A DNA stretch of 64,000 nucleotides. Source: Thiohalorhabdus sp. Cl-TMA (GTDB taxonomy: Bacteria > Pseudomonadota > Gammaproteobacteria > Thiohalorhabdales > Thiohalorhabdaceae). The notes beneath the pieces were generated by a model. That model had not been told where the DNA came from and searched no databases. It was given only the letters and a program-made list of their open reading frames with translations. Shown here one piece after another: positions 15,035-32,384 of this stretch. Numbering within the stretch: the first letter of the stretch is position 1; every line of letters begins with the position of its first letter. Location: NCBI RefSeq assembly GCF_041821045.1, contig NZ_JBGUAW010000005.1:186001-250000 (forward strand), read 5' to 3'. The position numbers and the translations under genes are program-made.

Positions 15035-17288
15035 CCGGAAGAGCGAGCAGGACCTCCCGCCCGGCTCGGAGCAGCAGGAGCAGCGGCCGGAGTCGGCCCT
15101 GGGGAGTACCGACTTCAGCACCTGGTCCCGCGAGGACCTGATCGCCCGGCTCCGCCACCTGGAGGCGGATCTGGCGGCCGAATCCTCTCCCGAGGACTAC
15201 CGGCGCATGCTCTACGAGCTCCAGGTCCACCAGATCGAGCTGGAGATGCAGAACCGGGAGATGCGCGAGCTGCGGAGCCAGCTCGAGGATTCCCGGGACC
15301 TGTACGTGGACCTCTACGACTCCGCCCCCGTGGCCTACCTGACCCTGAACCGGGAGGGCCTGATCCGTTCCATCAACCTCACCGGCGCCGAGCTGCTGCG
15401 CTGGGAGCGCGAGAGCCTGAGCGAGAAGCCCTTCTCCGGATTCCTGCGCCCCGATCACGTGCCCGGGTTCTTCAGCTACCTGCGGGAGCTGCTGCGGGAG
15501 GGCCACGCCCGCCCCATCGAGGTGTGCCTCGGACCGCCGGGCGGTGCTCCCAGAACGGTGAAAGTGGAGGGCGCCCAGGCCGTCTCCCCCCGGGACGGCG
15601 AAACCGTGGCCCGGCTGATCCTCACCGACGTCACGGAGGTCAAGGAAACGGAGGCCCTGCAGCGCCGCGTCAACCGCGCCCTGCGCGCCCTGAGCCGTGT
15701 CCAGGACGCCGCGCGTGCGGCGCAGAGCTGCCGCTGCCTCATGGACCAGGTCTGCCGCTTCCTGAACGAGGATGCGGGGTATGCCCTCGCCTGGGTGGGG
15801 GAGCCGGTGACGGACGGAACCGGCTCGGTGCGGATCCTGGGGGCCAGTGGGGCCACCGGCTATCTGGACCGGGTCATCGGCGAGATCCGCTGGACACCCG
15901 ATGACCAGGGCGGCCGGGGCCCCTTCGGCCGGGCGGTGCAGACCCGCGAGCCGGTCATCAGCAACTCCGTGGGCACGGACCCCTCCTTTGCGCCGTGGCG
16001 GGAGCGCGCCCTGACTCATAACCTGAACGCGGTCGCCGGCATACCCCTGGTGGAGGGCGACAGGGCCCTCGGCGTGCTCGGCCTCTACGCTGAGGATGCG
16101 GAGTCCTTCGACGACGAGGAGATGCAGTGGCTGACCCGGGTGGCGGACGAGGTGGCCACCGCCTGGATCTCCCTGCGCCATCGGGAGGAGCGGTGCAAGG
16201 CCGAGGAGGAGCGCAACCGGCTGGTGGAGATCCTCGAGGCCACCCCGGACTTCGTGGCCATCGCCACGGCCGACGAGCGGGTCGTCTACTGGAACGCCGG
16301 CGCCTACGAGGTGCTGGGCTACGACCCGGAGAACTACCGTCCGGAGGAGCATGTGGTCCGGGACCACTTCCCGCGCTGGGCGTACGAGTGCCTGACCACC
16401 GAAGTGCTCCCCCTGGTCCGGGAGCGGGGCGTCTGGCGCGGCGAGACGGCCTTTCTGAGCCGGGACGGCCGGGAAGTGCCGGTGAATCAGGTGATCCTGG
16501 CCCATTACGGGCCGGAGGGGGAGTTGGAATACTACTCCACCATCGCCCACGACCTGAGCACCTTCAAGCGCCAGCGCGCCGAGCTGGAGCGCAGCCGCCG
16601 GCTCATGGCCCTCGGCGAGCTGGGCTCGGTGCTGGCCCACCAGCTCAACCAGCCGCTCACGGCGGCGCTGACCTTCGCCGAGGGCACCCTGCAGCGGTTC
16701 GACAGACTGGAGGAGGTGCCCGCCGGCCTGCGCGAGGGCCTGGAGCAGATCCGCGTCCAGGTGGAGAAGGCGGGCGGCATCGTCCGCGACCTGCGCAACT
16801 TCCTGCGCGGCGGATCGCCCCATTTCCAGCGCGTGGACCTCAATGCCCTGGTGCAGACGGTGGGTCCGCGCCTGGAGATGGGCCGGGAGACCCTGGTGCC
16901 CTGCCTGGAGCAGCATCTGGCCGACGACCTGCCGTACGTTTCCGCCGACCCCACCCTGGTCCAGGAATGCCTCCAGAACCTGGTGAACAACGCCACCGAG
17001 GCCATGGAGGACCAGGCGGCGCCGGTGGTCCATATCACCACCGAGTCCCGGGCGGATGGGCTCGTGGAGGTCCGGGTGCGGGACTCGGGGGGAGGGCTTC
17101 CCGAGCCCATGCAGGAGAACCTGGACCGGCCCCTGTACACCACCAAGCCCGGCGGCCTGGGGCTCGGCGTGGCCATCTGCCGCTCGGTGATCGAGGCCCA
17201 CGACGGCAACCTGTGGGCCACCCCCAACGAGCCGGAGCCCGGAACCACCTTCCACTTCACCCTGAAGGCCGCGGATCGCGACGCCTGA
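15024..17288 (+). CDS. PAS-GAF-PAS sensor histidine kinase (754 aa)
   Basis: GTG start overlapping the end of the CheB-CheR gene. Order: an N-terminal coiled segment (YELQVHQIELEMQNREMREL), PAS (about 95-210, ending LILTDVTEVKE), GAF (about 225-380, with AGIPLVEGDRALGVLGLYA), PAS (about 395-510), HisKA with LAHQLNQPLTAAL, and HATPase_c with NLVNNATEAM, VRDSGGGL and LGLGVAICRSVI. Cytoplasmic; no membrane segment. The ELEMQNREMREL segment plus PAS is a recurring N-terminus in kinases that accompany CheB-CheR fusions. About half of its residues appear identical to the next kinase (17585-19876), so they are tandem duplicates. No receiver domain. Confidence 0.92.
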   Translation: MRGDRKSEQDLPPGSEQQEQRPESALGSTDFSTWSREDLIARLRHLEADLAAESSPEDYRRMLYELQVHQIELEMQNREMRELRSQLEDSRDLYVDLYDSAPVAYLTLNREGLIRSINLTGAELLRWERESLSEKPFSGFLRPDHVPGFFSYLRELLREGHARPIEVCLGPPGGAPRTVKVEGAQAVSPRDGETVARLILTDVTEVKETEALQRRVNRALRALSRVQDAARAAQSCRCLMDQVCRFLNEDAGYALAWVGEPVTDGTGSVRILGASGATGYLDRVIGEIRWTPDDQGGRGPFGRAVQTREPVISNSVGTDPSFAPWRERALTHNLNAVAGIPLVEGDRALGVLGLYAEDAESFDDEEMQWLTRVADEVATAWISLRHREERCKAEEERNRLVEILEATPDFVAIATADERVVYWNAGAYEVLGYDPENYRPEEHVVRDHFPRWAYECLTTEVLPLVRERGVWRGETAFLSRDGREVPVNQVILAHYGPEGELEYYSTIAHDLSTFKRQRAELERSRRLMALGELGSVLAHQLNQPLTAALTFAEGTLQRFDRLEEVPAGLREGLEQIRVQVEKAGGIVRDLRNFLRGGSPHFQRVDLNALVQTVGPRLEMGRETLVPCLEQHLADDLPYVSADPTLVQECLQNLVNNATEAMEDQAAPVVHITTESRADGLVEVRVRDSGGGLPEPMQENLDRPLYTTKPGGLGLGVAICRSVIEAHDGNLWATPNEPEPGTTFHFTLKAADRDA

Positions 17289-17584: not shown

Positions 17585-19876
17585 ATGAGGAATGAACACC
17601 GTGATGCCCCCTTCTTGTCCGCCTCGGCCGATGCCCTCATGAACAGGGAAACGGGCGGTTCGCGGTCCTACGCGGATGTCGGCGCCTGGTCCGGGGCGGA
17701 CCTGGAAAATCGCCTCCAGGAGCTCCGGAAGGCGCTCCAGGACCCCCAATCCGCGCCGCCCAAGCAGCGGGACCGCTACGAGCTGGAGGCGCAGCGCATC
17801 GAGCTGGAGATGCAGAATCGCGAGCTGCGCGAGCTGCAGGCGGAGATGCAGGCCTCCCGGGATCTGTACGCGGACCTTTACGATTTCGCCCCCCAGACCT
17901 ATCTGGCGGTGAGCCGGGAGGGGCTGATCCGGGCCATCAACCTCACCGGCGCCCAGATGCTCGGCTGGGAGCGCGGTAACCTCACCGGAAAGCCCCTGGC
18001 CCCGTTCGTTCACGCCGAGGACCAGCCGGCCTTCTTCACCTTTCTCCGCAAGCTGTTCGAGGAGGGGGAGCGCACCTCCCGGGAGATCCGCTTTTCCCCC
18101 AAGGGCGGCAGCCCATGCACGGTGGTCCTGGAGGGCATCCTCGGCAGCGCGCCCGCCGAGGGCACCCCCTTCGCCCGGCTGGCGGTGACGGACATTACCG
18201 AGCGCAAACGGGCGGAGGCCATCAAGGAGCGGGAGAACCGCGTGCTGCGGGGGCTCCAGGCGGTCCAGCACACGGTCCGGGAAGGGGCCGATCTGCCCAC
18301 CCTGCTGCAGAGGGTCTGCCAGCACCTGAACGAGGAGGCCGGCTACGCCCTGGCCTGGATCGCCCAGCCCGTGGACGACGCCGAGCGGTCCATCCGGATC
18401 ATGGGGCTGGCGGGGGAGACCCGCTACGTGGAGGCCATGCAGGGGCGCGTTAGCCTGACCTGGGGCCCGGGCGCCGACGGCGGCGAGAACGCCCTGGGCT
18501 ATATGGCGCGCACGGGGGAGTATCTGGTGAGCAACTCCCTCAGGGAGGAGAGCCTTTGGGCGGGTCGGGATATTGCCCATAGCATGGGCATGAACGCCGC
18601 TGCCGGTCTGCCCCTGGTCTACGACGATCGCGTGGTCGGTCTCATGGGCCTGTATGCCTGGGACCGGGACGCCTTCGACGAGGGGGAGATGCGCTGGCTG
18701 CTCCAGCTTGCCAACGAGCTGGCCACCGCCTGGGCCACGCTGGCGTACCAGGAGCAGCACCGGCAGTCGGAGCAGGAGCGCCAGTACCTGCTGGAGTTCC
18801 TGAACGCCACACCCGACTTCGTGGCCATGGCGGATGTGGCGGGCAACGTCCTCTATCGGAATCCCGGGGCCTATCGGCTGCTGGGCCAGGATCCGGCCCA
18901 CAGGCCCCTGGAATCCATCCGCATGTCCGAGGCGCATCCCCAGTGGTCCTGGCACCGGCTCCTGAACGAGGCCTTCCCCACCGCCCGGCAGGAAGGGGTC
19001 TGGCAGGGCGAGATGGCCTTCCTGGACACCGCCGGCCGGGAGATCCCCGTCCATCAGGTGATCGTCGCCCACTACGGCGACGACGGCTCGGTGGAGCGCT
19101 TCTCCACCATCGCCCACGACCTCACCGCCTTCAAGCGTCAGCGCGCCGAGCTGGAGCGCACCCGGCGCTCCGTGGCCCTGGACGAGCTCGGCTCGGTGAT
19201 CGCCCATCAGCTCAACCAGCCCCTGACCGCCGCCCTGATGTACGCCGACGGCACCCTGAACCGCTGGCAGGGGCAGCAGGGCGTTCCCGATGGCTCGGAG
19301 GAGGGGGTGGTGCGGGTCAAGGAGCAGGTGCAGAAGGCGGTGGAAATCGTCCAGGACCTGCGCAAGTTCCTGAACGGCGGCAAGCCGCAGCTCCAGCCCC
19401 TGGACCTCAACGCCCTCATCGAGCGGATCGGCCCCCGCCTCATCCTGGGCCGGGAGACCCACCAGCACCACCTGCGCGAGGATCTGGACCCCGACCTGCC
19501 CGAGGTGTCCGCCGATTCCACCCTGCTCCAGGAGTGCCTCCAGAACCTGGTCAACAACGCCGCCGAGGCCATGCAGGAGGCGGAGGTGGACGAGCCCGCG
19601 GTGGATATCCGGACCCGCTTCCGGGAGGACGGCATGGTGGAGGTGCAGGTCCGCGATAGCGGGGTGGGACTGCCGGAGACCCTGCGGGAGAACCTGAATC
19701 AGCCCCTGTTCACCACCAAGCCGGGCGGCATCGGGCTCGGCGTGGGGATCTGCCGCTCGGTGGTGGAGGCGCACGGCGGCGTCCTCTGGGCCACCCCCAA
19801 CGACCCCGAGCCGGGCACCACCTTCCACTTCACCCTCAAGCCGGTGGAGGCCGACCCGGAGGAGGAAGCCGGCTGA
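17585..19876 (+). CDS. PAS-GAF-PAS sensor histidine kinase, tandem paralogue (763 aa)
   Basis: Same architecture and length as the preceding kinase: coiled segment with IELEMQNRELRELQ, PAS, GAF (LPLVYDDRVVGLMGLYAWD), PAS (ATPDFVAMADVAGNVLY), HisKA with IAHQLNQPLTAAL and HATPase_c with NLVNNAAEAM, VRDSGVGL and IGLGVGICRSVV. The start could also be the ATG 18 codons further in (17639); neither has a strong ribosome binding site. A 296-base gap containing an AT-rich patch near 17350 separates it from the upstream gene, so it may have its own promoter. Divergence is concentrated in the PAS domains, suggesting that the copies sense different signals through similar outputs. Confidence 0.92.
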   Translation: MRNEHRDAPFLSASADALMNRETGGSRSYADVGAWSGADLENRLQELRKALQDPQSAPPKQRDRYELEAQRIELEMQNRELRELQAEMQASRDLYADLYDFAPQTYLAVSREGLIRAINLTGAQMLGWERGNLTGKPLAPFVHAEDQPAFFTFLRKLFEEGERTSREIRFSPKGGSPCTVVLEGILGSAPAEGTPFARLAVTDITERKRAEAIKERENRVLRGLQAVQHTVREGADLPTLLQRVCQHLNEEAGYALAWIAQPVDDAERSIRIMGLAGETRYVEAMQGRVSLTWGPGADGGENALGYMARTGEYLVSNSLREESLWAGRDIAHSMGMNAAAGLPLVYDDRVVGLMGLYAWDRDAFDEGEMRWLLQLANELATAWATLAYQEQHRQSEQERQYLLEFLNATPDFVAMADVAGNVLYRNPGAYRLLGQDPAHRPLESIRMSEAHPQWSWHRLLNEAFPTARQEGVWQGEMAFLDTAGREIPVHQVIVAHYGDDGSVERFSTIAHDLTAFKRQRAELERTRRSVALDELGSVIAHQLNQPLTAALMYADGTLNRWQGQQGVPDGSEEGVVRVKEQVQKAVEIVQDLRKFLNGGKPQLQPLDLNALIERIGPRLILGRETHQHHLREDLDPDLPEVSADSTLLQECLQNLVNNAAEAMQEAEVDEPAVDIRTRFREDGMVEVQVRDSGVGLPETLRENLNQPLFTTKPGGIGLGVGICRSVVEAHGGVLWATPNDPEPGTTFHFTLKPVEADPEEEAG

Positions 19877-19901: not shown

Positions 19902-21014
19902 TCAGCCGGGTACGGTGAGCACCCGGCGCACGGCGACGGCGTGCCCCTTCCGCTCCTCCAGCCAGGCCAGGAGCGCCCGGGCCGCGTAGGCCCACTCTCC
20001 CCGCACCAGGCCCCGCCCGGCGGCCACCCGGCGGAAGCGCGTCAGGTCCTGCTCGCCGGGTCCGCACACCGCCAGGTAACGGTCCAGGGCGGCCTCGTTC
20101 TCCGTACCGGTGGTGGCCCGCAGTGCCCGTTCGCCTTCCGGGGGTGGAAACGTCCAAGTGCTCCCTTGAATGGCCACGTTCCCCGCCAGCACGCTCACCC
20201 GGCCGTCGGGATAGAGGTCGAAAAGGGTGCAGCGGTCTCCCGGGCTGCCGCCGGTGACGCGCAGATGGAAGGTGCGCCCTGCCCGCAGCCGCTTCCCGAG
20301 GGGCCGGCCCGCGGCACTCACCGCCCGGAGCCGGAGGCCGCCGCGCGCATAGCCGGAGAGGTCCACCGCCGCCAGGGTGTCGGCGAGCGGGAGCTGCACG
20401 CCGTCGGCCCGGTAGATCCAGTCGCCGTCGCGCCGGTCCAGGGAGAGGGCCACCTCCCGGACATCGTCCCCGCCGCCGGTGAGTGCGCGGTCGAGCCGCC
20501 GTACCAGCGGCGCCCCCGTGAGCCCGGCGGGTCCCCGCCAGCGGATCCGGGCCGGCTCGCCGGCCCACTCCGCCCGCAGATTTTCCGCCAGCACCGCCCA
20601 GGCCGGGCGTAGATCCAGGCGCCAGCGCACGTAGAACCGCGCCCCGCGCTCCGCGACTCGGTCCCTGCGGGCATGGTCCAGCCGCTGCCGGGCGTGCAGC
20701 CGGATTTGCTGCCGGTAGCTCCGTTCCGACGGCTCGCCGGCGCCCCGGCGCGTGCGGCTCTCCACGGCGCTGCGCACCCACACGGAGCGCTGCTGGCCGA
20801 GGTCCTGCAAGGCCTCGGCCCGGGCATCCGGGAGGCTGGTGCCCCGGCCGTAGCCGTAGAGCAGGTCGGGGTGGGGCGCTGGCTGTCCGAACCAGTCGGG
20901 GGTGTCCGGGCCGGGTGCGGCGCTGTCCGTCGCGCAGGCGGCGAGCAGGAGGCCGCCGCACAGGCCGGCAAAGCGGCGGACGTAGCGGGAAAAGCCCATG
21001 CTGGGGTACGCCAT
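19902..21014 (-). CDS. LPP20/DUF4384-like lipoprotein (370 aa)
   Basis: A signal peptide ends in a lipobox GGLLLAAC, predicting an outer-membrane lipoprotein. Residues ~40-180 resemble the LPP20 family: WFGQPAPHPDLLYGYG followed by ARAEALQDLG. The C-terminal part resembles DUF4384: LRAGRTFHLRVTGGSPGDRCTLFDLYPDGRVSVL. Other genomes often place DUF4384 next to or inside caspase-like proteins, and here the gene is divergent (131 bases) from a lipoprotein with a caspase-like domain. This supports a shared envelope function, perhaps as a partner or regulator. The start at 21014 has GAGGGAG just upstream; an ATG five codons later is the alternative. Family calls are by motif only. Confidence 0.75.
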   Translation of the reverse strand: MAYPSMGFSRYVRRFAGLCGGLLLAACATDSAAPGPDTPDWFGQPAPHPDLLYGYGRGTSLPDARAEALQDLGQQRSVWVRSAVESRTRRGAGEPSERSYRQQIRLHARQRLDHARRDRVAERGARFYVRWRLDLRPAWAVLAENLRAEWAGEPARIRWRGPAGLTGAPLVRRLDRALTGGGDDVREVALSLDRRDGDWIYRADGVQLPLADTLAAVDLSGYARGGLRLRAVSAAGRPLGKRLRAGRTFHLRVTGGSPGDRCTLFDLYPDGRVSVLAGNVAIQGSTWTFPPPEGERALRATTGTENEAALDRYLAVCGPGEQDLTRFRRVAAGRGLVRGEWAYAARALLAWLEERKGHAVAVRRVLTVPG

Positions 21015-21145
21015 GGCTCCCTCGAACGGACCGGCAACGGGGACGGCGTCCCGGGAATGGGTGGGAGGCGGACAATCTGGCAGAATCTCTCCCGGGGCGC
21101 AATGTCCGCCCCGGATGCCGCATCCCCTGGGAGACCCGAACCGCC

Positions 21146-24055
21146 ATGAACCGTTCCATCCTGCTTTCGGCCGTCCTCCTGGGACTGCTCGTCCTGGGCG
21201 GATGCGCCTCGCCGGGAAAGCGTGTCTGGCCCGCTCCGGACGGCGCCGCCGGGGCGCCCGACCAGTCCGGGGCGCCCCTGTTCATCTTCCGCACCGGCGG
21301 GGCGGTGCGCGGCGCGCCGGCGCTCGGGCCGGGCGGCAAGGTGTACCTGGCTTCCCGGGACGGCCATGTCTACGCCGTCTCCCCGTCCGGAGCCAAGGAA
21401 TGGGCCTACGAGCTGGGCGCGGCGGACGGGGAGGCCGCCGTGGCGGTGGCGCCCGACGGCCGGATCTACGCCGCCGCCGGCGGGCGTGTCCACGCCCTGA
21501 GCCCCGACGGCGAGCGCCGCTGGGTCTACGCCACCCGGGGGACGGTGCGCGGCGCGCCGGTGCCCGGTCCCGACGGCACCCTCTACGTGGCCTCGGCGGA
21601 CGACGCCACGAAGAAGGACGACGGCTACACCTATCCCGTCGACCACCTCCACGCCGTCACGCCCCGGGGAGAGCGCAAGTGGGTCCGGGAGGCGGCGGGC
21701 GGCGTGGCCGCACCGCCGGCGGTGGCTCCCGGCGGCACCGTATACCTGGCCACCCGCGACGGCGGGGTCCACGCGCTGAACCCGGACGGTGACCGCAAGT
21801 GGTCGCGGGCGGTCCCCGGGCCCCTGTCGGCGTCCCCCGCCGTAGGGCCGGAGGGCGCTGTCTACGTGGGCTCGAAGGAGGGGCGTCTCCACGCCCTGAC
21901 GGCGGCGGGCGAGCGAAGATGGACGCAAGAGATGGGCGGCGCCGTGACGGCCGCCCCGGCGGTGGCCCCGGACGGCACGGTGTACGCGGGCTCCGGGGAC
22001 GGCCGCATCCACGCCCTGACCCCGGCCGGCGAGGAGAAATGGACCTACGCCACCGACGGTCCGGTGGCCACCACGCCCGCCGTGGGCCCGGACGGTACGG
22101 TGTACGCTGGCTCGGACGACGGCTTCCTCTACGCCCTCACGCCCGACGGCACGCGGCGCTGGGCCCGGGGCACCGGAGAGCCGGTCCGCTCCTCGCCGGT
22201 GATCGGCCCCGGCGACCGCGTGTATGTGGGCTCGGACAGCCGCCGCCTGTACGCCTGGCGGGGCTGGCCGGAATGGGTGGCCCGTTTCCCGGCGGACCCG
22301 CCGGAGGCCCGGGGGCGGTTCCGGTGGCGGGCCGGGCACGGCCATCCGGCGCCCCATACCGACGGCACGAGCCTGGCCACGGTGCGCCAGCTCGCCGAAC
22401 GCCGGTTCCGGCATGCCCTCGCCACCTATCGCCGGCTGCCGCCGGACCTGCGGGAGCGCCAGTGGCGCCTGGCGCTGGCGCGTCCGCTGCCGCCGCGGCT
22501 CGCCAAGGACGAGTTCGAATCCAGCCGGCGCTTCCGGGAGCGGCTCGACCGGGCCCGGAAGGCGTATCGCCAGAGCGTGGAGGACCACAACCGGCGGGTG
22601 TCGGAGCTGGAGACGGCCATCCGGGGCTTCCGCCGCGACCGCCGGCGCCTGCCCGCCTGGAAGCGGGAGCAGATCCTGCGCCGCACCTTCCTGGAGGTGC
22701 TCGGCGATCCCGAGCTGCGCGATATCCGCTACGACGCCGACAGCCGGACCTTCTACGGCGAGATCGTCGCCAACCGGGGCGGCGGGCTCCAGCGCACCGT
22801 GGCCCTGAAGCGGGCGGTGTCCCCGGAGGCGGCCCGGCGCCTCAAGCCCCGCCTGCAACGGGTCGATCCCGAGGTCACCTTCGAGGTCGGCGACGACGGC
22901 GGCCTGGAGTGGGCCGACGCGGCGGTGGCCGTGGACGGCACCCGCTACGCCCTGCTGCCCACCGGGGCGCCCGCGCCCGTGGACGTGCGCGTCCGGGTGG
23001 CCGGGCCGGCGCCGGAGCGCGTGGACCTCACCGGCCTCAGGGTCCGGGGGGCCGGCGAGGACCTGGACCTGACGGTGACCCGGGACCCGGAGATCCGCGC
23101 CCTGCAGGAGCGCATCGTCCAGGCCCGCGAGCGCATCGCCGCCGAGCGGCTCAAGGAGCGGCGCCTGGCCCGGCTCAAGGAGCGCCTGGCGGAGCTGCAG
23201 GGGCGCCGCGGCGCGGACGCCGCGCCCAACGCCCGGACCCGCGAGCTCCTGGAAGGGCTGCCCGAGGCGGCGCGCCCCCGTCCCCACGGCGTGGCCGTGA
23301 TCATCGGCAATCGCCACTACGGCGGCGCGGACAGCGACATCCCGGATGTTCGCTACGCCCACAACGACGCCCGCGCCATGGCCCGCTTCGCCCGCCGCAC
23401 CCTCGGCTTCCGGGCGGGCAACGTGGTGGTGCTCGAGGACGCCTCCAAGGCGCGTCTGGAGGCCTGGCTGGGCTCCGCCAGCCATCCGGGGGGGCGGCTG
23501 GCGGATCTGGTGAAGCCGGGCCGGTCGGAGGTGTTCGTCTACTATTCCGGCCACGGCGTGCCCGGGGCGCGCGAGGGGCGCAGCCACCTGCTGCCCGTGG
23601 ACGCCTCCCCGGACCAGGTGGCCATCACCGGCTATGCCCTGACGACCCTCTACCGCAACCTCTCCCAATTGCCCGCCAAGCGCGTGACCGTGGCCCTGGA
23701 CGCCTGCTTCTCGGGCCGCTCGCCCGGGGGCGCGGTGGTGCGCAACGCCTCGCCCGCCACCCTGACGGTGAAGGGGGTGCGGCCCGGGCTGGCGGGCGGC
23801 ACCGTCCTGGCCGCCGCCGCGCCGGAGCAGATCGCCTCCTGGGACACGGAAGCGCGGCTGGGGCTGTTCACCCGGTACTGGCTGAAGGGGGTGAGTGGCG
23901 CGGCCGACGCCGACGGCGACCGCCGCGTCACCGCCGGCGAGCTGCACGACTTCCTCGGCGAGCGGGTCACCTACCAGGCCCGCCGGCGCTACGGCCGGGT
24001 CCAGGAGCCGCGCCTGTTCGGCCCGCCGGAGCGGGTGGTGGCGGAGCTGCCCTGA
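21146..24055 (+). CDS. Lipoprotein with eight-bladed propeller and C-terminal caspase-like peptidase (969 aa)
   Basis: The ATG at 21146 starts a lipoprotein signal peptide (SAVLLGLLVLGGC, Cys20) with GGGAG upstream; coding before it is not convincing. Residues ~45-375 hold eight repeats of a PQQ-type propeller blade, each with P-x-V/L-GPDG-x-VY-x-GS-x-DG...YALTPDG-x2-W. A charged helical region (~400-700) follows, including RERLDRARKAYRQ and KERRLARLKERLAEL. The C-terminal ~250 residues are a C14 caspase-like domain: VAVIIGNRHY, catalytic His803 in VYYSGHG and Cys854 in ALDACFSG, then AAAPEQIASW. Both catalytic residues are present, so it should be an active Arg/Lys-type peptidase on the periplasmic face. 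It is the first gene of an apparent envelope operon. Confidence 0.9.
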   Translation: MNRSILLSAVLLGLLVLGGCASPGKRVWPAPDGAAGAPDQSGAPLFIFRTGGAVRGAPALGPGGKVYLASRDGHVYAVSPSGAKEWAYELGAADGEAAVAVAPDGRIYAAAGGRVHALSPDGERRWVYATRGTVRGAPVPGPDGTLYVASADDATKKDDGYTYPVDHLHAVTPRGERKWVREAAGGVAAPPAVAPGGTVYLATRDGGVHALNPDGDRKWSRAVPGPLSASPAVGPEGAVYVGSKEGRLHALTAAGERRWTQEMGGAVTAAPAVAPDGTVYAGSGDGRIHALTPAGEEKWTYATDGPVATTPAVGPDGTVYAGSDDGFLYALTPDGTRRWARGTGEPVRSSPVIGPGDRVYVGSDSRRLYAWRGWPEWVARFPADPPEARGRFRWRAGHGHPAPHTDGTSLATVRQLAERRFRHALATYRRLPPDLRERQWRLALARPLPPRLAKDEFESSRRFRERLDRARKAYRQSVEDHNRRVSELETAIRGFRRDRRRLPAWKREQILRRTFLEVLGDPELRDIRYDADSRTFYGEIVANRGGGLQRTVALKRAVSPEAARRLKPRLQRVDPEVTFEVGDDGGLEWADAAVAVDGTRYALLPTGAPAPVDVRVRVAGPAPERVDLTGLRVRGAGEDLDLTVTRDPEIRALQERIVQARERIAAERLKERRLARLKERLAELQGRRGADAAPNARTRELLEGLPEAARPRPHGVAVIIGNRHYGGADSDIPDVRYAHNDARAMARFARRTLGFRAGNVVVLEDASKARLEAWLGSASHPGGRLADLVKPGRSEVFVYYSGHGVPGAREGRSHLLPVDASPDQVAITGYALTTLYRNLSQLPAKRVTVALDACFSGRSPGGAVVRNASPATLTVKGVRPGLAGGTVLAAAAPEQIASWDTEARLGLFTRYWLKGVSGAADADGDRRVTAGELHDFLGERVTYQARRRYGRVQEPRLFGPPERVVAELP

Positions 24056-24113
24056 GGCGGGGGTGCTCCGGAAACGGCGGGCAAGGGAAGTTGACCGGAG
24101 CGCGGCGAGCCGC

Positions 24114-24144
24114 GATCCTTTCCCGGCCGGGGGCGGGAAGGATC
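24114..24144 (+). repeat. Intercistronic hairpin after the caspase-like gene
   Basis: Arms GATCCTTTCCCG and CGGGAAGGATC pair apart from one bulged T, around a G-rich loop. A second small perfect dyad CGCGGC-GA-GCCGCG lies directly before it (24101-24114). No T-run follows. It may stabilise or separate the caspase-like message from the downstream gene, whose ribosome binding site starts about 20 bases later. Confidence 0.4.
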
Positions 24145-24177
24145 ACCAGGAACGGAAAGGCCACAAAGGGGAACGGC

Positions 24178-24669
24178 ATGGCGGGGAAGGGCGGATGGCG
24201 GATTTTGACGGCGGCGGGCCTGCTGGCGGCGCTGCTGAGCGGCTGCGGCAAGGGCGGCGACGACGACACCGTGAAGCCGAAGCTGGACAGCCTCTGGGCG
24301 GAGCGGCTGAAGTATTGCAGCGAGTGTCATGACCCGGACCGGGATCCAGATTACGACGGCCCCGATATGTCCACGCAGGCGTCCTTCCTGGCCGGTCTGA
24401 AGGAACAAGACCACTCGGATTACGGTGATTGGAATATAGGATCAGATTGTAGTGGGGTCCCTTTTATTGACCCTGAGAAGCCGGGAAATTCCTTGATTAT
24501 GGCGGCTTTGGTACTGTCGTATTCTGATCAGATAAGTGCAGACCATGGGAAGTGTGACACTTCCTACAGTTACCATAATGATGTTAGTGAGTCTTTCGAC
24601 GCCGAAAAGGACGCCGACCTAATCAGTGCCCTGAAAACCTGGATCGCCAACGGCGCCAAGGACAACTAG
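24178..24669 (+). CDS. Haem-binding-type (CxxCH) lipoprotein (163 aa)
   Basis: The ATG is preceded by AAAGGGGAA. A signal peptide ends LLAALLSGC (lipobox). A CSECH motif about 25 residues later fits covalent c-type haem attachment. The layout LKYCSECHDPD ... IDPEKPGNSLIMAAL ... LISALKTWIANGA is that of small cytochrome-c-like domains with a distal segment ending in W-I-x-x-GA; whether there is a Met or other axial ligand is unclear. Further Cys residues may form a disulfide. From about 24413 to 24600 the gene is distinctly AT-rich compared with everything around it, while both ends match the local composition, suggesting a recently acquired or fast-evolving segment. It ends 12 bases before the AsmA-like gene. 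Confidence 0.75.
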   Translation: MAGKGGWRILTAAGLLAALLSGCGKGGDDDTVKPKLDSLWAERLKYCSECHDPDRDPDYDGPDMSTQASFLAGLKEQDHSDYGDWNIGSDCSGVPFIDPEKPGNSLIMAALVLSYSDQISADHGKCDTSYSYHNDVSESFDAEKDADLISALKTWIANGAKDN

Positions 24670-24681
24670 GACGGCCCGGCG

Positions 24682-27600
24682 GTGAGCGGGGACGGCGGGA
24701 ATCTCCGGCGCGCCGGGCGCCCTTGGCTCCGCTACGGGCTGTACGCCCTGGCGGGGCTCGGGGCGTTCGGGGCCGCCGTTCTGGTGGCGGTCTACTTCGC
24801 GCTGCGCTCGCCCGCCGTCATGGACCGGCTCCTGCCCGTGGCCAGCGACGTCCTAGAATCCACCGCCGGCGTGGCGCTGCGCGCCGAGCGGGTCCGCATC
24901 GACCTGCTGTCCGGCGCCGAGCTCCGGGGCCTGGAAGTCCGCTGGACCGATCCGCAGCGGGGCGAGGCGGTGGCCGCGGTGGACGCCGTCTCCCTGGCGT
25001 TCCGCCCCGGCGACCTCCTGGGCGGCCGCCTGTTCGTGGAGCGCCTGCGGGTGGCGGGGCTGGACCTGGACGCCGACCTGCGCCTTCCCGCTTCGTCCGG
25101 GGCCGAGCCCTCGGAGCCGGAGGGGGCGGCTCCCGTGCCCGGCGGGGATGCCGATACCCCGGCCGAGCCCGCCTGGCGGGGCCTGGCCAAGGCCCTGGCC
25201 GCCCCGCCGCTGGCGCTGCGCGCCGAGGAGCTGGCCGTCACCGACAGCCGCGTGGACCTGCGCGTGGTCCGATCCGGCCGCATCCTCCGCTACCGGACGC
25301 CCGTGGCGCTGCGCGGCAGCGCTCGCTGGGCGGCGGATGGCCTCCGGGCGAGCACCCGGCTGGATCTGGGCGCCGGGGAGGACGCCGCTCCGGGTACCCT
25401 CTTCCTGGATGGTGCCGGCGAGGGGGCGTCCCTGGCGGCGGAGGCCCGGCCCGCGCTGAGCCTGGCCCTGGACTGGACCCTTGAGCGCGCGGACTCCGGC
25501 TGGGCGCTGCGCGTGGATCCCCTGCGCCAGCGCTTCCAGCTCGCCGGCGCGCGGGTGACGGGCCGCTCGCCGGACGGCCCGGTCCGGGCGGAGCTGGCGG
25601 TGCTGGACCTCCGGGCCCGACTGTCCGCCGCCACCAGCGGGACGGCCCCCACGGACGGCGCGGGGCCGGCCGCGATCTTCCCGCTGCGCACCAACCTGAC
25701 GCTCCGCGCCGGGCTCGACGGTCTGGACGCCGCCGCCGGCGGGCGCAGGCTGCGTCTGGAGCGGTACCGCCTGCAGGTGGACGGCGAGAACCACGCCCCG
25801 GACCCGGACCACCTGTTGGCCGATTTCCGGCTCACCGGCCGCCAGGAGCTGTCCCTGCCCGGGGCGTCCCTGGACGCCGGCGGCGGCCCCCGCGCCGCCC
25901 TGGAGGGCTTCCGGCTGCGCTCGGGCTGGAAGCTCCGGGACGGCGATAACCCCGAGGGCCGCATGCCGCCGCCGTTCACCTTCGAGGTGGGCCTGCAGGG
26001 CGGCGCGGACCGCCTCACCGCCTCGCTCCCCGGCGGCGAGGCGGCGCCCGCCGCGCTGCGTCTGGACGCGCCGAGCCACGCCTTCCGCCTCACCGGCTCC
26101 GTGGACCGGCCCGGGGATCTGCTCGCCGCCCTGCGGGCGGAGCTGCGGGGCGACCTGGGGCTCGATTCCCTGGAGGTCCGGAAGCAGGGCGCCGAGGGAA
26201 AGCGGGTCCTGCGCATGGCGGGGCCGGGGCTCACCGTCAACGGCTCCTTCGCCGAAGGGGCGGGCAGCCTGCAAGCGGACCTGGACCTCCCCGGGATCCG
26301 CACGCCCCTGGTGAAGCGGTCTTTCCGGGCCGGGCTCCGCGCCCGGGCGGAGAGCGATGCGGCCCTCGAGCGGCCGAGCGCCGGACTGGCGCTCCACCTG
26401 GACGGCGAGCGGCTGGCCTCCCTCTCGGCCTCCGCCCGCGACGAGGCCGGGACGCTTCGCCTGGACCACCGCCTGGCGGCCCGGCTCGGCGCCGGGCTCG
26501 CCGGATACCATGCCGCCGCCGTGCCGCTGCGGCGGCTCGGGGGCCTGCGCCTGGAGTGGGAGGGCGAGCAGCGCCTGGAGCACGGCGCCGAGTCCGTGCT
26601 GGACGCCGATTTCGGGGCCGTGGATGCCTGGCCCGCCGAGGGCACGGGGCTGCTGAGCGTGGCCCAGCTCGGCGAGCCCGCCGAGGCCCTTCCGGCCTGG
26701 GGGGAGCCGTTGCGGCTGGATTACCGCCTGGCCCGGGCGGGAGACTACACCGCCGAGCTGGCCCTCACCGCGCCCGCCCTGCGCGTGCCGCCCCTGGAGG
26801 AGCCCGTGCACCTCAAGCTGTACACCCACCAGGGTGCGGACTGGCCCCTCACCGAGGCCCGGGCCTACGGCCTGGCCTGGCTAGAGGGCGAGCGCCTGTT
26901 CTCCTACGGGCTTTCCCTGGACAACGCGCCCGGCGACTTCCGGCTGCGGACCGGGCTGGGTCTGGCCGCCGACCCGGATTGGGCGGCGCACTGGTCCGCC
27001 CTGAAGCCCCTAGAACGGGCGGGCCGCCTGGATACCGGCGTGAGCCTGCGGACCCGGGTGGCGCACCCCCATGACAGCATCCTGGCGCTGCGCCCGGGCG
27101 CCCTGGACGGCGTGGCGGTCGAGGCGGATCTGTCCCTGGCGCTTGCCCAGGGGCAGGCCGGTTCGCTGCTGCGCCTGCACCAGCCCCTGGTGCTGCGGGA
27201 GCACCTGGAGTGGTCGCCGGAGCATGCCCACCTGCGCGGCGGGCTGCGGCTGCCTTCCGCGGTCGTTCCGGGCCGCCTGGCGGCCGAGGGCCTGGCCCTG
27301 GACCACCATGCGCGCATGCGCCCCGGACGGGCGCCCGATTCGGGACGGCTGGAGGCGGGGCTGGAGGCGGCGCGCCTGGCGCTCCCGGGTGGAGAATCCG
27401 GGACGCAGCGGGACCTGGCGCCCCTTGCGGTGCCGTTGCGCCTGACCGTGGAAGGGGCCCGGGATGGCGGGGATGCCGAGCTGGAGAAACTGGCGCTGGC
27501 CCTGGGTGGCGGCCTGGCGGCGCTGGAGGCGGCGGGGCGCTTCGCCACGGACGGCGGCGAGGGAGCCCTGAGCGGCCGGCTCACCCTGCGTCCCCGGGAG

Positions 27601-28482
27601 GAAATGTGGCAGGCCCCGGCGCTCTCCGGCAGCGGCACCCTCCAGGCCCCCTGGCAGGTCACCTGGATGGACCGGCGCCGCTTCGCCCTGGAGGGACGCC
27701 TGGTCTTTCGCGATCTGGGGCTGCGCTCGGACCGGTTCCGGCTGGCCGGGCTCTCCGGCGAGATCCCCTTCCACGAGGAGCTGGAGCGCACCGATTCCGG
27801 CGGCCTGCGCTTCGCCTATCTGGCGGAGGCCGATCCCTTCCAACGGGTGGCCTTCAGCCGGGTCCGGCCCTATCTGGACCAGAGCTTCAGGCTCGACGCG
27901 CGCAAGCTGGAGGCCGGGGGCGTCGCCGCGGGTCCCCTGCGCGCCAGCCTGGACATGGAGCAGAACCTGCTGCGCCTGCGGCGGTTCGAGCTGGGGCTGC
28001 TGGGCGGTCACCTGGGCGGCGAGCTCTACCTGGACGCCACGCCCGGGGCCATGCGGGTGGGCTTCCTGGGCCGGGTCAGCCAGGTGGACCTGCGGCCACT
28101 GCTCGCCGACGAAGCGGGCGCCGCGCAGCGGGCGTACGCCCCCGTCAGCGCCCGGGCGGCGGTGAGCCTGGATGTGGCTCGGCTCCTGCTGGAGGGCCGG
28201 GTGGACATAACCCGCATCACCCGGGCCCAGCTCCTGCAGGTGCTGGCCCTGCTGGACCCGGCGCAGGAGGATCCCCAGCTCGACCGTATCCGCAGCGCTC
28301 TGCGCGTGGCCCACCCGCAGCGGGTGAGCCTGCGCATGCGCAATAGCCTCCTGGACCTGGAGGTGGCCCTTTCCGCCCTCAAGGAGCCCATCCGGGTGCG
28401 CGGCGTGCCCCTGACCCCGCTCCTGCAGCGCTATGCCGCCGACACCCTGCGGATGGCCGACCGTTTCCCCCTGGAGGAATGA
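24682..28482 (+). CDS. AsmA-like (YdbH-type) large envelope bridge protein (1266 aa)
   Basis: GTG start 12 bases after the haem lipoprotein gene. There is one N-terminal transmembrane helix (LYALAGLGAFGAAVLVAVYFAL), then a very long periplasmic region of alternating amphipathic strands. The beginning (LRAERVRIDLLSGAELRGLEV, here cut: VRIDLLSGAELRGLEV) and the end (LLRLRRFELGLLGGHLGGEL, VDITRITRAQLL, GVPLTPLLQRY) have the look of AsmA-like, TamB/YdbH-class beta-groove proteins that move phospholipids between inner and outer membranes. The following small lipoprotein overlaps by four bases, as expected for a YdbH-YnbE type pair. There is no catalytic motif. The AsmA-like class is fairly safe; equivalence to YdbH is inference from length and neighbours. 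Confidence 0.75.
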   Translation: MSGDGGNLRRAGRPWLRYGLYALAGLGAFGAAVLVAVYFALRSPAVMDRLLPVASDVLESTAGVALRAERVRIDLLSGAELRGLEVRWTDPQRGEAVAAVDAVSLAFRPGDLLGGRLFVERLRVAGLDLDADLRLPASSGAEPSEPEGAAPVPGGDADTPAEPAWRGLAKALAAPPLALRAEELAVTDSRVDLRVVRSGRILRYRTPVALRGSARWAADGLRASTRLDLGAGEDAAPGTLFLDGAGEGASLAAEARPALSLALDWTLERADSGWALRVDPLRQRFQLAGARVTGRSPDGPVRAELAVLDLRARLSAATSGTAPTDGAGPAAIFPLRTNLTLRAGLDGLDAAAGGRRLRLERYRLQVDGENHAPDPDHLLADFRLTGRQELSLPGASLDAGGGPRAALEGFRLRSGWKLRDGDNPEGRMPPPFTFEVGLQGGADRLTASLPGGEAAPAALRLDAPSHAFRLTGSVDRPGDLLAALRAELRGDLGLDSLEVRKQGAEGKRVLRMAGPGLTVNGSFAEGAGSLQADLDLPGIRTPLVKRSFRAGLRARAESDAALERPSAGLALHLDGERLASLSASARDEAGTLRLDHRLAARLGAGLAGYHAAAVPLRRLGGLRLEWEGEQRLEHGAESVLDADFGAVDAWPAEGTGLLSVAQLGEPAEALPAWGEPLRLDYRLARAGDYTAELALTAPALRVPPLEEPVHLKLYTHQGADWPLTEARAYGLAWLEGERLFSYGLSLDNAPGDFRLRTGLGLAADPDWAAHWSALKPLERAGRLDTGVSLRTRVAHPHDSILALRPGALDGVAVEADLSLALAQGQAGSLLRLHQPLVLREHLEWSPEHAHLRGGLRLPSAVVPGRLAAEGLALDHHARMRPGRAPDSGRLEAGLEAARLALPGGESGTQRDLAPLAVPLRLTVEGARDGGDAELEKLALALGGGLAALEAAGRFATDGGEGALSGRLTLRPREEMWQAPALSGSGTLQAPWQVTWMDRRRFALEGRLVFRDLGLRSDRFRLAGLSGEIPFHEELERTDSGGLRFAYLAEADPFQRVAFSRVRPYLDQSFRLDARKLEAGGVAAGPLRASLDMEQNLLRLRRFELGLLGGHLGGELYLDATPGAMRVGFLGRVSQVDLRPLLADEAGAAQRAYAPVSARAAVSLDVARLLLEGRVDITRITRAQLLQVLALLDPAQEDPQLDRIRSALRVAHPQRVSLRMRNSLLDLEVALSALKEPIRVRGVPLTPLLQRYAADTLRMADRFPLEE

Positions 28483-28781
28483 GCATGCCCACGTCCCGCC
28501 GGAACCCGTTGCCGCTAGCGCCGCTGATCCTCCTTCCCGTCCTGGGCGGCTGCGTCAATCTGGCCCCGGAGGTGCACATCGCCGACCGCCACACGGTGCT
28601 GGAGCAGGACGCCTCCGGGAGCTGGCCGGAGCTGGAGAAGCGGTTCGACGAGCGGGTGCTGCGCATGGGGCCGGTGCCCCTGGCCGAGGACCCCCTGCAC
28701 GGCAGCCGCCGGGAGCGGGCCTTCAGCGTCCTCAACGGCGCCTTCGTGAACGGCGAAGGGGAAGAGGGGGGCGGGTCGTAG
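28479..28781 (+). CDS. Small YnbE-like lipoprotein (100 aa)
   Basis: The ATG overlaps the stop of the AsmA-like gene (ATGA), showing translational coupling. A signal peptide with lipobox LLPVLGGC predicts an outer-membrane lipoprotein. After the Cys the sequence runs VNLAPEVHIADRHTVLEQD, then a charged helix (WPELEKRFDERVL) and a Gly-rich acidic tail. In enterobacteria YdbH (AsmA-like) works with the small lipoprotein YnbE, which extends its beta-groove to the outer membrane. Position, size and lipidation match, but the sequence is too short for a firm family call. Its stop codon overlaps the GTG of the next gene. Confidence 0.65.
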   Translation: MSMPTSRRNPLPLAPLILLPVLGGCVNLAPEVHIADRHTVLEQDASGSWPELEKRFDERVLRMGPVPLAEDPLHGSRRERAFSVLNGAFVNGEGEEGGGS

Positions 28782-31700
28782 TGGCCCGGGCTGATTGGCC
28801 GAACGGAAACCGTGTAGGAGCGGCCTCCCGGCCGCGACCCGTGGAGCGTGGCTCCGGGGGCCGCGACGCGGACGTCGCTCCCACAGGGCCTCGCAGGCCG
28901 CGTGCCCTGTTGCGCGCCGGCCTGGCCCTGCTCCTGCTGGTGCCCGCCGCGGCTCCCGCCGTGGACTGGGAGTCCAATCGGCTCAGGGAGCCGCGCAAGA
29001 TCACCGTGGGGCCTGCCGACAACGCGGGGGCGGCGGTGGAGGCCGGGGGCGGGGGGCTCTATTTCTCCCGGGTGCGCAGTCAGGTCCCCGGGGTCTTCCG
29101 TCAGGACCTCCGTACCCAGCGCGCCCGCGCCGTGCTGCCGGGGCGGGGGGACGCCCGGGCGCCCGCCGTGGGTCCCGAGGGCACGCCGCTGGCCCTCGTC
29201 AGCTACCGGTTCGATGCCCGGGGGGATATCTGCCTGTACAGGGGGGAAAAGGCGGGGCTGGAATGCCTCACCGAGCCGGGACGCACGGAGCGTGCGCCGT
29301 TCTGGGCGGGCGCCGGGCGCGTGGGGTGGCTCCAGCGGCCCGCCTCGGGCGACGGCTGGGCGCTGGTGGTGCAGGACCTCGGCGGCGGCGAGCGCCGGAC
29401 CCTGGCCGAGGGCGCGCTGTCCGCCCCCGCCGCCGACCCCTCCGGGCGGTACGTGGTCTACAACCGGGCGGCGGAGCGGCCCGGCGACCGGCCCCGGCTG
29501 GAGATCCACGACCGCCGGACCGGCAGGACCCACCGGCCGCCGCGCTTCGACCTGCCCGGCATCACGGGCTCGCTGGCCTTTTCCCGGGAGGGCCGGTATC
29601 TCTATTTCACGCACTACCTCAACGACACCAGCCTCGATCAGGTGATCGACGGCGCCGACCACGGGGTGGTGCTCCGCGTCCGCTTCCAGCGCCTGCTGAC
29701 CGCCGAGGCGCCCTTCCTGCCCGAGCAGCTTACCTCCGTGGCCCGCAACTGCCGCTTCCCGGCGCTGGGTCCCGGACACCTCTATCTCACCTGCGCCTTC
29801 GAGGGGTCGCTCGACATCTACCGGCTGCCCGCCGGCGGCGCGGTGCCCGCGGACTGGGACGAGGAAAAGCTCCGGTCCGCCTACCGGGCTGCGCGCACCC
29901 ATCCGGACCGGCTGCTGCTCCTGAACACCCTGCGCTACCGGCACGGCGGGGCCGATCCGCGCATGGTGGAGCGCCTGCTCAGCCATCACCTGGAGATCGG
30001 CGAGCTGCGCGCGGCGGGATACTACGTGGCGGAGCTGCGGCGCGCCTACGCGGAGCGGGGACGGGACCGCCTGGCCGCCTTCTACCGGATGCTCGGCCCC
30101 CTGCTGGAGGTCCGGAGCCTGGAGAAACGCCAGCCCCGCGGGGTGCGCACCACCGCCTTCCTGCGCCGGGTGCGGGCGGTGCGCCGGGAGCTGCAGCGCA
30201 CTCCGGTCACCGCCGATCAGGGCGCCCTGCTGGCGGCGTATCTGGATGTTGCCGAGGGGGAGCGGCGGCGGGCCCTGGAGCGCCTGGACGGCCTGCGCCT
30301 AGCCGAGGGCGATCTGCTGCCGCTGGGGCGCTATCTGGCCTTCGCCCTCTACCGGCGCCTGTTGGAGGAGCGCGATCCGGGGCGGCTGCTGGACCATTAC
30401 CCGGCCATGTACGGCGCCGCCGACCTCTCCCGGGAGGCCCGGCTCTACTACGCCTTCCGGTACCTGCGGCTCCTGGCGCGGCTGCACGGCAGCGGCGGCG
30501 AGCGCCTGGAAATCCTGGGATCCCGGCTCACCGAGCCGCCCGGTGCGGGCGTGGCCGCTCTCTTCCGCGCCGAGCGGGCCGCCCTGGAGCTGGCGGCGGC
30601 CGAGGGCGAGGAGGCGCGGCAAGCGGCCTATCGCGAGATCCGCGAGCTGCTCTCGGAGGCCCGGGAGGATCCGGTCCTGCGGCGCGTCCAGCACGTGCGC
30701 GCCATCCGGGTGCTGGGCGCCGCCGACGATTACGAGTACATGGAGCTGCTGTCCCGCCACTGGCTGCTGAGCACCCATGTTTCGGAGATGGGCTTCCCCT
30801 ACGTGGCCGAGCAGTACGCCGTCGCCGTCACCGACAAGGCCTACGGCCTGCTGGCGCAGGGGGAGGGGGACCGGGCCTTCCTGTCCTTCTACAGCGTCCT
30901 GCGCCAGACCAACGACCTGGAGGCCCATTACCGCTACATCACCCTGGGGCTCGGCCGGCTGGACCGGAGCGACGAGGTGGAGCGCAGCTACGGCATGCTG
31001 CGCGAGCGGGAGCTGCTGGGCGAGAGCGGCCCCTATGTCCGGGCCCTGCGCCTGCTGCTGCCCGATTCCGGCCGCCCCACCGACGAGGAGCTGGATCGCG
31101 CCATCGCGCTGCTGGAGGAGCTACCGCCCACGGGCATATCGCCGGCCATGGGGGAACTGCTGCTGGGCTACGCCCACCACCGCAAGCTGGCGCGCGGCCG
31201 GAAAGGGCGGAGCTACGACAAGGGCCGCTTCCAGCAGGCCCACCGCCACTACATGCTCGCCCTGGACCTGGCCCACGAGAATGCCCGCATCCGGGCGGCG
31301 GTGCTACAGAACCTCGGCCTGCTGCATGTCGGCGTGGGCAACTACGCCATGGCCGCGGACTTCTACGGCCGCCGCGCCGGCCTGCCGTTCGCTTCCGGAG
31401 CGGGAGAGGCGGCCCTGCGCTGGAAGCTCGCCCGCGCCCTGTTCTACGTGGACCGACCGGACCGCGCCCGGCGGCAGGCCGAGCTGGGCCTCGACGTCGC
31501 CGAACGGCGGGAGGGCCTGGCCGCGGCGCCCTTCCGGGAGAAGGCCGCCTTCTATGCCCTCCAGGCCGGGGCATACGAGGCGGCCACGGCGCACTACGCC
31601 GCGCTGCTGGAGGGGGGCGGGGCGCCGGAGGGCGCCCATGGGGCACGCATCCGGCTGGCCTATGGCTATGCGCTGCTCAAGGCGGAGCGCCCGGAGGCGG

Positions 31701-32353
31701 CCCGGAAGCATCTCCGTGCGGCGGGGGCGGGTGGGGCACCCCCTCCCCGGCGCCGGTTGCTGGCGCTCGGCCTGCTGGCCGAGGCCGCTCCGGGACCGGC
31801 TGAGGCGGCCGGATACCGGCGCGAGCGGATCGCCCTGTGGGAGCGCTTCACCGGCGAAGCCAGGCGGATTGGCTATTCGGAGACGGACCGGCTGCGCTTC
31901 CTGAGCAAGGACTACCAGCAAGTGGCCGCCGCGGAGGAGCGCCTCGGGCGGATCGGCGCCGCACGGGAGGCCATCCTCCGGGGGCTGGCGGCGGCCCGGG
32001 AATGGGCCGCGACAACGGGCAGTCCCGGCGGCGTGCCGGTGTACCACGGCCTGGTCAACTACCTGAGCCTCGGGGTGCGGCATCCGGAGGTTTTCGACGG
32101 GGCCGATCCGGAGTGGCTCGGGGAGCGCATGGACGCGACCCTGGCGGCCTACGCGGACCTGCCGGGGGCCACCGCGATCACGCGGACCCGGCAGCTCAAG
32201 CTGCGTATGCTCTGGAAAGCCTACGGAAGGGCACCGGCGGCGCCCCCGCCACGCCGTATCCTGGAATCGGAGGCTGCCCGGAGCCTCAAGGCGGCCCGGC
32301 CCGGGCTGTACGGCGAGCTGGAGGCGCTGGCGGACCGGCTCACTTCCCTGTAA
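28781..32353 (+). CDS. Exported propeller (TolB/WD40-like) and TPR protein (1190 aa)
   Basis: The proposed start is a GTG at 28781 overlapping the preceding TAG, with GAAGAGGGGGG upstream. Residues ~42-60 form a signal peptide core (LLRAGLALLLLVPAAAPA). A TolB-like propeller follows (about 65-370), with repeats such as GGGGLYFSRVR, ALVSYRFDARGDICLY, ADPSGRYVVYN and FSREGRYLYFTHY. The C-terminal ~800 residues are helical repeats of TPR type (AHRHYMLALDLAHENARIRA, LQNLGLLHVGVGNYAMAADFY, ALFYVDRPDRARRQAELGL). It should be periplasmic or surface-associated. Unusually, residues ~11-35 before the signal peptide are encoded by a REP palindrome, so the native start may have been displaced. It is the last gene of the envelope cluster and ends at a convergent terminator. 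Confidence 0.75.
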   Translation: MARADWPNGNRVGAASRPRPVERGSGGRDADVAPTGPRRPRALLRAGLALLLLVPAAAPAVDWESNRLREPRKITVGPADNAGAAVEAGGGGLYFSRVRSQVPGVFRQDLRTQRARAVLPGRGDARAPAVGPEGTPLALVSYRFDARGDICLYRGEKAGLECLTEPGRTERAPFWAGAGRVGWLQRPASGDGWALVVQDLGGGERRTLAEGALSAPAADPSGRYVVYNRAAERPGDRPRLEIHDRRTGRTHRPPRFDLPGITGSLAFSREGRYLYFTHYLNDTSLDQVIDGADHGVVLRVRFQRLLTAEAPFLPEQLTSVARNCRFPALGPGHLYLTCAFEGSLDIYRLPAGGAVPADWDEEKLRSAYRAARTHPDRLLLLNTLRYRHGGADPRMVERLLSHHLEIGELRAAGYYVAELRRAYAERGRDRLAAFYRMLGPLLEVRSLEKRQPRGVRTTAFLRRVRAVRRELQRTPVTADQGALLAAYLDVAEGERRRALERLDGLRLAEGDLLPLGRYLAFALYRRLLEERDPGRLLDHYPAMYGAADLSREARLYYAFRYLRLLARLHGSGGERLEILGSRLTEPPGAGVAALFRAERAALELAAAEGEEARQAAYREIRELLSEAREDPVLRRVQHVRAIRVLGAADDYEYMELLSRHWLLSTHVSEMGFPYVAEQYAVAVTDKAYGLLAQGEGDRAFLSFYSVLRQTNDLEAHYRYITLGLGRLDRSDEVERSYGMLRERELLGESGPYVRALRLLLPDSGRPTDEELDRAIALLEELPPTGISPAMGELLLGYAHHRKLARGRKGRSYDKGRFQQAHRHYMLALDLAHENARIRAAVLQNLGLLHVGVGNYAMAADFYGRRAGLPFASGAGEAALRWKLARALFYVDRPDRARRQAELGLDVAERREGLAAAPFREKAAFYALQAGAYEAATAHYAALLEGGGAPEGAHGARIRLAYGYALLKAERPEAARKHLRAAGAGGAPPPRRRLLALGLLAEAAPGPAEAAGYRRERIALWERFTGEARRIGYSETDRLRFLSKDYQQVAAAEERLGRIGAAREAILRGLAAAREWAATTGSPGGVPVYHGLVNYLSLGVRHPEVFDGADPEWLGERMDATLAAYADLPGATAITRTRQLKLRMLWKAYGRAPAAPPPRRILESEAARSLKAARPGLYGELEALADRLTSL
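28813..28885 (+). repeat. REP-type palindromic element
   Basis: The left end begins TGTAGGAGCGGCCTCCCGG and contains the perfect hairpin GCGGCC-TCCC-GGCCGC; the right end is GTCGCTCCCACA. The ends TGTAGGAGCG and CGCTCCCACA are the classic outer parts of REP sequences of pseudomonads and related gammaproteobacteria, here as an inverted pair. It lies inside the open frame of the propeller/TPR gene, just upstream of its signal peptide. I saw no second copy in the window. Confidence 0.75.
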
Positions 32354-32384
32354 AAAAGCCTCCCACCCGATCCGGGTGGGAGGC
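32352..32384 (-). terminator. Intrinsic terminator of ettA, between convergent genes
   Basis: Perfect 11-base arms GCCTCCCACCC and GGGTGGGAGGC with a five-base loop (32358-32384) are followed on the minus strand by six T (plus-strand A run 32352-32357). It therefore terminates ettA. The same stem lies four bases after the stop of the propeller/TPR gene and may help end that transcript too, although no T-run follows on the plus strand. Confidence 0.85.

Follow-up and report, generated by a model that had tools for sequence, protein, structure and literature searches.

A conserved gene unit joins a remote YdbH relative and a small lipoprotein to a propeller/repeat protein and a lipoprotein with a haem motif

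Six adjacent genes, here called A to F, occupy part of the window, that is, the whole 64,000-nucleotide stretch of DNA analysed, which belongs to a 3.74-Mb host genome. A preliminary description read their products as a surface sensor-protease coupled to an envelope lipid-transport bridge. The question that the locus raises is which of these genes belong together, and what the proteins of the resulting unit might do between the membranes.

Layout of the locus

Gene A (19902–21014, minus strand) encodes an LPP20/DUF4384-like lipoprotein and is divergent from gene B (21146–24055, plus strand), whose lipoprotein product combines eight PQQ-type repeats with a caspase (C14) domain. Both lie outside the conserved unit described below. 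By ORF reading, this unit, C-D-E-F, spans 24178–32353 on the plus strand and is co-directional with B. Gene C (24178–24669, plus strand), with its ATG start at 24178, encodes a 163-aa lipoprotein carrying the c-type haem motif CSECH. Gene D (24682–28482, plus strand) has a GTG start and encodes a 1266-aa AsmA/YdbH-like bridge protein with one N-terminal hydrophobic helix, and gene E (28479–28781, plus strand) encodes a 100-aa lipoprotein that is YnbE-like by position. Finally, gene F (28841–32353, plus strand) encodes an exported protein with a TolB-like beta-propeller and a long helical-repeat (TPR-like) region.

The gaps measure 122 bp between B and C, 12 bp between C and D, and about 60 bp between E and F, and the stop codon of D overlaps the start codon of E as ATGA. 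A single REP-like imperfect inverted repeat (GTAGGAGCG...CGCTCCCAC, 28812–28885) lies between E and F and extends over the probable start of F, which leaves the choice of start codon uncertain; GTG 28841, inside the repeat, was taken as the start. Downstream, a strong bidirectional terminator-like hairpin with a 12-bp stem (32358–32384) separates F from a convergent ABC-F gene. Lipoboxes are present in A, B (LGGC), C (LSGC), and E (LGGC), and F has an export signal with no lipobox. Asp at position +2 is absent from all four lipoproteins, which suggests placement in the outer membrane according to the E. coli rule.

At the level of single genes, the preliminary description was borne out. All of its ORFs, five co-directional and one divergent, are present, and its four lipoboxes, the CxxCH motif in the second protein of the series, and the 1266-aa protein with one N-terminal hydrophobic helix, coupled through ATGA to a small lipoprotein, can all be read in the sequence. 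For F, which it had named an exported propeller/TPR protein, export and a propeller, which is TolB-like, are supported, and the TPR label is weak.

Two features of the surroundings were also observed. The 3' half of gene C (24400–24669) has a G+C content of 48%, compared with 72–77% in the neighboring genes, and C may have a different history or be under weak codon selection. Upstream of A, two similar adjacent genes encoding PAS/GAF-type histidine-kinase-like proteins (15024–17288 and 17585–19876) have apparently arisen by tandem duplication.

Conservation of C-D-E-F and the tie between C and F

A scan of one genome per species yielded seven loci, including one in a Myxococcales MAG and one in an Oligoflexia MAG. 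Two Gammaproteobacteria of other families share the order C, D, E, F and have neither A nor B. The two other species of the window's genus lack B, D, and F. In a class-wide search, full-strength matches to F came from 8 of 369 Gammaproteobacteria genomes, the weaker matches being TolB-type propellers; it was also present in 11 of 241 genomes of the phylum of the Oligoflexia MAG, referred to here as the second phylum. Together with the Myxococcales genome, these are the 20 F-positive genomes considered below. Eighteen of them, from the Gammaproteobacteria, the second phylum, and the Myxococcales MAG, have D, E, and F side by side with order and strand conserved; the unit extends over at least three major groups of bacteria. 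In the 19th genome (G249), about 7 kb separate D from E-F, which lie downstream on the same strand, and G054 is represented only by a piece of F at a contig end. Among the Gammaproteobacteria, the window branches deepest in the tree of F and in that of C, with low support in the latter.

C adjoins D-E-F in 15 of the 20 F-carrying genomes, in three arrangements. Five Gammaproteobacteria carry C immediately upstream of D. In two genomes (L050 and L127), C follows F in the same direction, and in eight (L051, L128–L133, and L135), it follows F but is encoded on the other strand, with one or two ORFs between F and C in L128 and L132. In two more genomes (G369 and G194), C lies on a different contig from F. 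A search with the C profile did not find C in G537, where F is at the contig edge, in G249, which carries D, E, and F, or in G054. Across 610 sampled genomes, a C gene was found in 16 of 19 with F and in none of 591 without F. The association holds separately in the second phylum (10 of 11 F-positive versus 0 of 230 F-negative genomes; Fisher 7e-17) and in Gammaproteobacteria (6 of 8 versus 0 of 361; Fisher 8e-12), where the Fisher values are only indicative because the genomes share ancestry and the C profile was built mostly by position. This 15-sequence profile, made largely from C genes located beside F, scored 143–184 bits only in F-positive genomes, and the next score was 33 bits. The C proteins of G369 and G194, which were outside the query alignment, scored 152 and 143 bits, respectively, and at the level of sequence profiles they provide independent confirmation of the tie between C and F.

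The alignment of these 15 relatives of C shows the pattern C-x2-4-C-H in nearly all of them, with the second Cys and the His invariant, as well as two further conserved cysteines (C91 and C126) and a WI..GA tail. No Pfam family matched C above its cut-off. Against PDB profiles, C gave six weak matches (E 0.085–0.92), of which the best five are haem c proteins, including the redox cytochromes FoxE and hydrazine synthase alpha, and one is a binding protein. These features indicate that C is likely to bind haem. The preliminary description considered its system possibly redox-responsive; the motif is real, and such a response may be a role of the haem. An AlphaFold model of C made from five sequences reached a pLDDT of 51 and was unusable.

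Several neighbors of the unit were seen at some of the loci. After the bridge operon of G058, beyond a small lipocalin-like gene, TamA-like and TamB-like genes were recognized by eye (L039:15611–19001), and a TamA-like gene was likewise seen by eye downstream in G194 (L082). The locus of G537 has, next to D but in the opposite direction, a gene for an exported multi-haem-type protein (cytochrome c7, 29.7 bits; L126:5803–6366). F of UBA6920 is followed by genes for large repeat proteins and by an ExbB/MotA-like gene (L048:4108–11592), an arrangement not seen at the other loci.

Collectively, the genomic patterns indicate that C, D, E, and F very probably form a unit and that C is a real partner of D-E-F. 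As regards the set that the preliminary description brought together, the AsmA-like protein and the small lipoprotein recur in other genera as a conserved pair resembling YdbH/YnbE, to which the CxxCH lipoprotein and the propeller/repeat protein also belong, in each case far beyond close relatives; the caspase-propeller protein does not recur with them.

Remote homologies and a proposed bridge between the membranes

In E. coli, the AsmA-family proteins YhdP, TamB, and YdbH are redundant with one another and essential as a set, and outer-membrane partners are expected for them (PMC8593681). D shows the traits of the AsmA-like clan, with one N-terminal membrane helix in its sequence and a long predicted beta-sheet body; its C-terminus is conserved. 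The D of the window scores below the Pfam AsmA cut-off (17.1 versus 29.8 bits), and a relative in L050 scores above it (31.5 versus 29.8 bits). A YdbH profile was built from E. coli YdbH and full-length relatives of it. With hhalign, a 17-sequence D profile matched the C-terminal part of this profile with a probability of 96.5% (E 7.5e-10, 168 columns), versus 1.6% for a reversed YdbH control. A first nine-row D alignment had reached 84%, and the single E. coli YdbH sequence gave no match to the D alignment; the firm result came only with the 17-row profile. The N-terminal part of D resembles TamB (62%); because TamB, YhdP, and AsmA were compared with D as single sequences only, the match to the YdbH profile does not prove that D is closest to YdbH. 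The YdbH family PF11739 itself finds no D in 13 genomes, that of the window included, its best D relative (L130) scoring 14.8 bits against a cut-off of 26.3. Thus, judged by the profile–profile match, D is a remote relative of YdbH that lies below the family cut-off. PF11739 was also found in none of the C-D-E-F genomes tested; since it occurs in only 33 of 369 Gammaproteobacteria genomes, we draw no inference about mutual exclusion of D and canonical YdbH.

A search of PDB sequences with the D profile returned nothing. The structural model of D (residues 70–1266) is almost all beta and suggests a beta-groove body, with modest confidence overall (pLDDT 62.8), a fair C-terminal half, and an N-terminal half largely under 50. 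In the latter, low-confidence part, where a Chorein-N-like start was looked for, model residues 1–226 matched an N-terminal fragment of Vps13 (Z 9.4, rmsd 5.1, 182 residues). For the middle of the model, the other structure matches were apoB and outer-membrane barrels. TamB, AsmA, and YhdP were absent from the structure matches listed, to which no weight is given.

Mature E starts with CxxxPxVxxxDRxT. The E proteins matched no Pfam family, YnbE included, and the short E and YnbE are alike only in the lipobox/CxPxVxV start, with 14 columns aligned; as the alignment covers the lipobox region only, we did not accept homology between E and YnbE. The E proteins of L086 and L050 are extended by a C-terminal part that resembles YdbL/DUF1318. 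The long E of L086 matches DUF1318 at 5e-5 with 24.2 bits, under the cut-off of 27; long E matches a YdbL profile at 61%, and the YdbL-like part in L050 was seen by alignment. Because a YdbL-like part is fused to long E and the E. coli order is ydbH-ynbE-ydbL, the E line can be linked to the YdbH-YnbE-YdbL system. The operon of the window has neither a DUF1318 (YdbL) component nor a separate ydbL gene. In E. coli, YdbH works with the outer-membrane lipoprotein YnbE (PMC12977461, PMC11784454).

F begins with a propeller that matches TolB structures in the PDB (best 1.5e-10) and continues into the long helical-repeat region. Its scores against the TolB equivalog, 20.1 and 31.7 bits, are far under the cut-off of 343. 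Two cysteines and a loop in the propeller, DTNxDQxIDGxDN, are conserved, and the loop has the appearance of a calcium-binding loop.

The data directly show the unit with its conserved gene order, the co-occurrence of C and F, the remote homology between D and YdbH, and the haem motif; the topology, a lipid cargo, and the roles of F and C are our inference. With fair confidence, we propose that C-D-E-F forms a YdbH-YnbE-like lipid bridge from the inner to the outer membrane, with F as an adaptor and C as a haem lipoprotein. In this proposal, the N-terminal helix of D would sit in the inner membrane, and its AsmA/YdbH-type beta-sheet groove would span the periplasm. The conserved C-terminus of D would meet E, which would serve as the outer-membrane lipoprotein acceptor in the way that YnbE does for YdbH, and lipids or other hydrophobic cargo would move along the groove between the membranes. 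F may be a periplasmic adaptor or scaffold through which the bridge is attached to the cell wall or to outer-membrane partners. C may be a c-type protein with a single haem, held by its lipid anchor at the outer end and serving the complex as its own redox partner. That the unit moves lipid is probable by analogy with the family. The stronger version, in which C is indispensable to the working bridge, either gating it or modifying its cargo by redox chemistry, is doubtful; if true, it would define a class of intermembrane transporters dependent on electron transfer.

The tie of C to F across groups is tighter than expected of an optional accessory, and this speaks for a different reading, in which D-E-F is a scaffold for electron transfer or outer-membrane cytochrome assembly that positions or exports C or other redox proteins, lipid transport being secondary. 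AsmA-like proteins are linked to the assembly and transport of outer-membrane and surface proteins (TAM, GspN), and the redox cytochromes among the weak matches of C fit such a role. However, D-E-F persists without C in G249, the one haem motif of C is too few for a conduit, and D resembles lipid-bridge proteins, all of which makes the scaffold unlikely. The cargo might also be something other than phospholipid, such as a quinone, hopanoid, carotenoid, or surface glycolipid, which C would redox-modify or sense. Bridge grooves bind generic hydrophobic ligands, and such a cargo would give a reason for the near-obligate partnership with a haem protein; yet no lipid-modifying or quinone-biosynthesis gene was recognized by eye as recurrent beside the C-D-E-F loci, and we regard this reading as quite unlikely.

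The route of phospholipids to the outer membrane and the partners needed by AsmA-family bridges are an active question. To our knowledge, the only well-known outer-membrane partners are YnbE for YdbH and TamA for TamB. The genome comparisons presented here suggest that a YdbH-like bridge has two further partners, both unexpected and near-obligate, of which one is a haem protein. Should the lipid bridge with adaptor F and haem lipoprotein C prove correct, the unit would represent an independent evolutionary experiment in bridge design and would allow a direct test of whether lipid transport can be tied to redox state.

The neighboring caspase genes and comparison with known systems

The eight-bladed PQQ-type propeller and caspase-like domain attributed to B were both seen: eight repeats can be read in the sequence, PF00656 matches residues 715–942 at 50.1 bits (cut-off 21.4), and the dyad residues His803 and Cys854 are present in SGHG and DACFS, respectively. 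A scores 17.8 bits against LPP20, under the cut-off of 25.9, and is DUF4384-like by eye only. In the literature searched, caspases with DUF4384 are mentioned mainly in orthocaspase surveys. The pairing recurs at two sites with no bridge gene near. In G038 (L040), a caspase has a DUF4384 protein nearby (8e-5), and at the start of contig C9 of the host genome (L088:21–2118), the C-terminal fragment of a second caspase at the contig end is followed by a protein with a weak DUF4384 match (0.002); neither DUF4384 score reaches the curated cut-off.

A and B are absent from every other C-D-E-F locus examined, and we therefore rejected the caspase and LPP20-like genes as members of the unit; the coupling of a surface sensor-protease to the lipid bridge is not supported. 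As caspase–DUF4384 pairs also occur away from bridge genes, the adjacency of A-B to C-D-E-F looks incidental, and on comparative grounds the cluster is two things side by side, a C-D-E-F unit and a separate A/B unit. That all six genes nevertheless form one sensor-protease and lipid-transport system in this organism, where B and C are adjacent, co-directional, and separated by a gap with no terminator-like site on the plus strand, is very improbable given the other loci and the bridge-free caspases.

A literature search found no description of an operon combining AsmA, cytochrome, and propeller proteins, nor of DUF1318 with AsmA. Among known systems, caspases (Peptidase C14) with DUF4384-type neighbors form the recurrent pairing into which A and B fit, whereas B adds a PQQ-type propeller. 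Compared with TolB of the Tol-Pal system, F shares the propeller but falls far short of the equivalog and is fused to a long helical-repeat region, and the C-D-E-F unit contains no Pal or TolA. TamA-TamB likewise combines an AsmA-family bridge, similar to the N-terminal part of D, with an outer-membrane partner; in contrast, the partner in C-D-E-F is a small lipoprotein and not an Omp85 barrel. Finally, C and F are extra relative to the E. coli YdbH-YnbE(-YdbL) locus, and because D lies outside the YdbH Pfam family and E has no YnbE match, we do not class C-D-E-F as a member of that system. The two nevertheless share a large inner-membrane-anchored AsmA-family protein with a small lipoprotein gene directly after it, remote profile homology between D and YdbH, and possibly a DUF1318/YdbL-like part, carried here on the E of two relatives.
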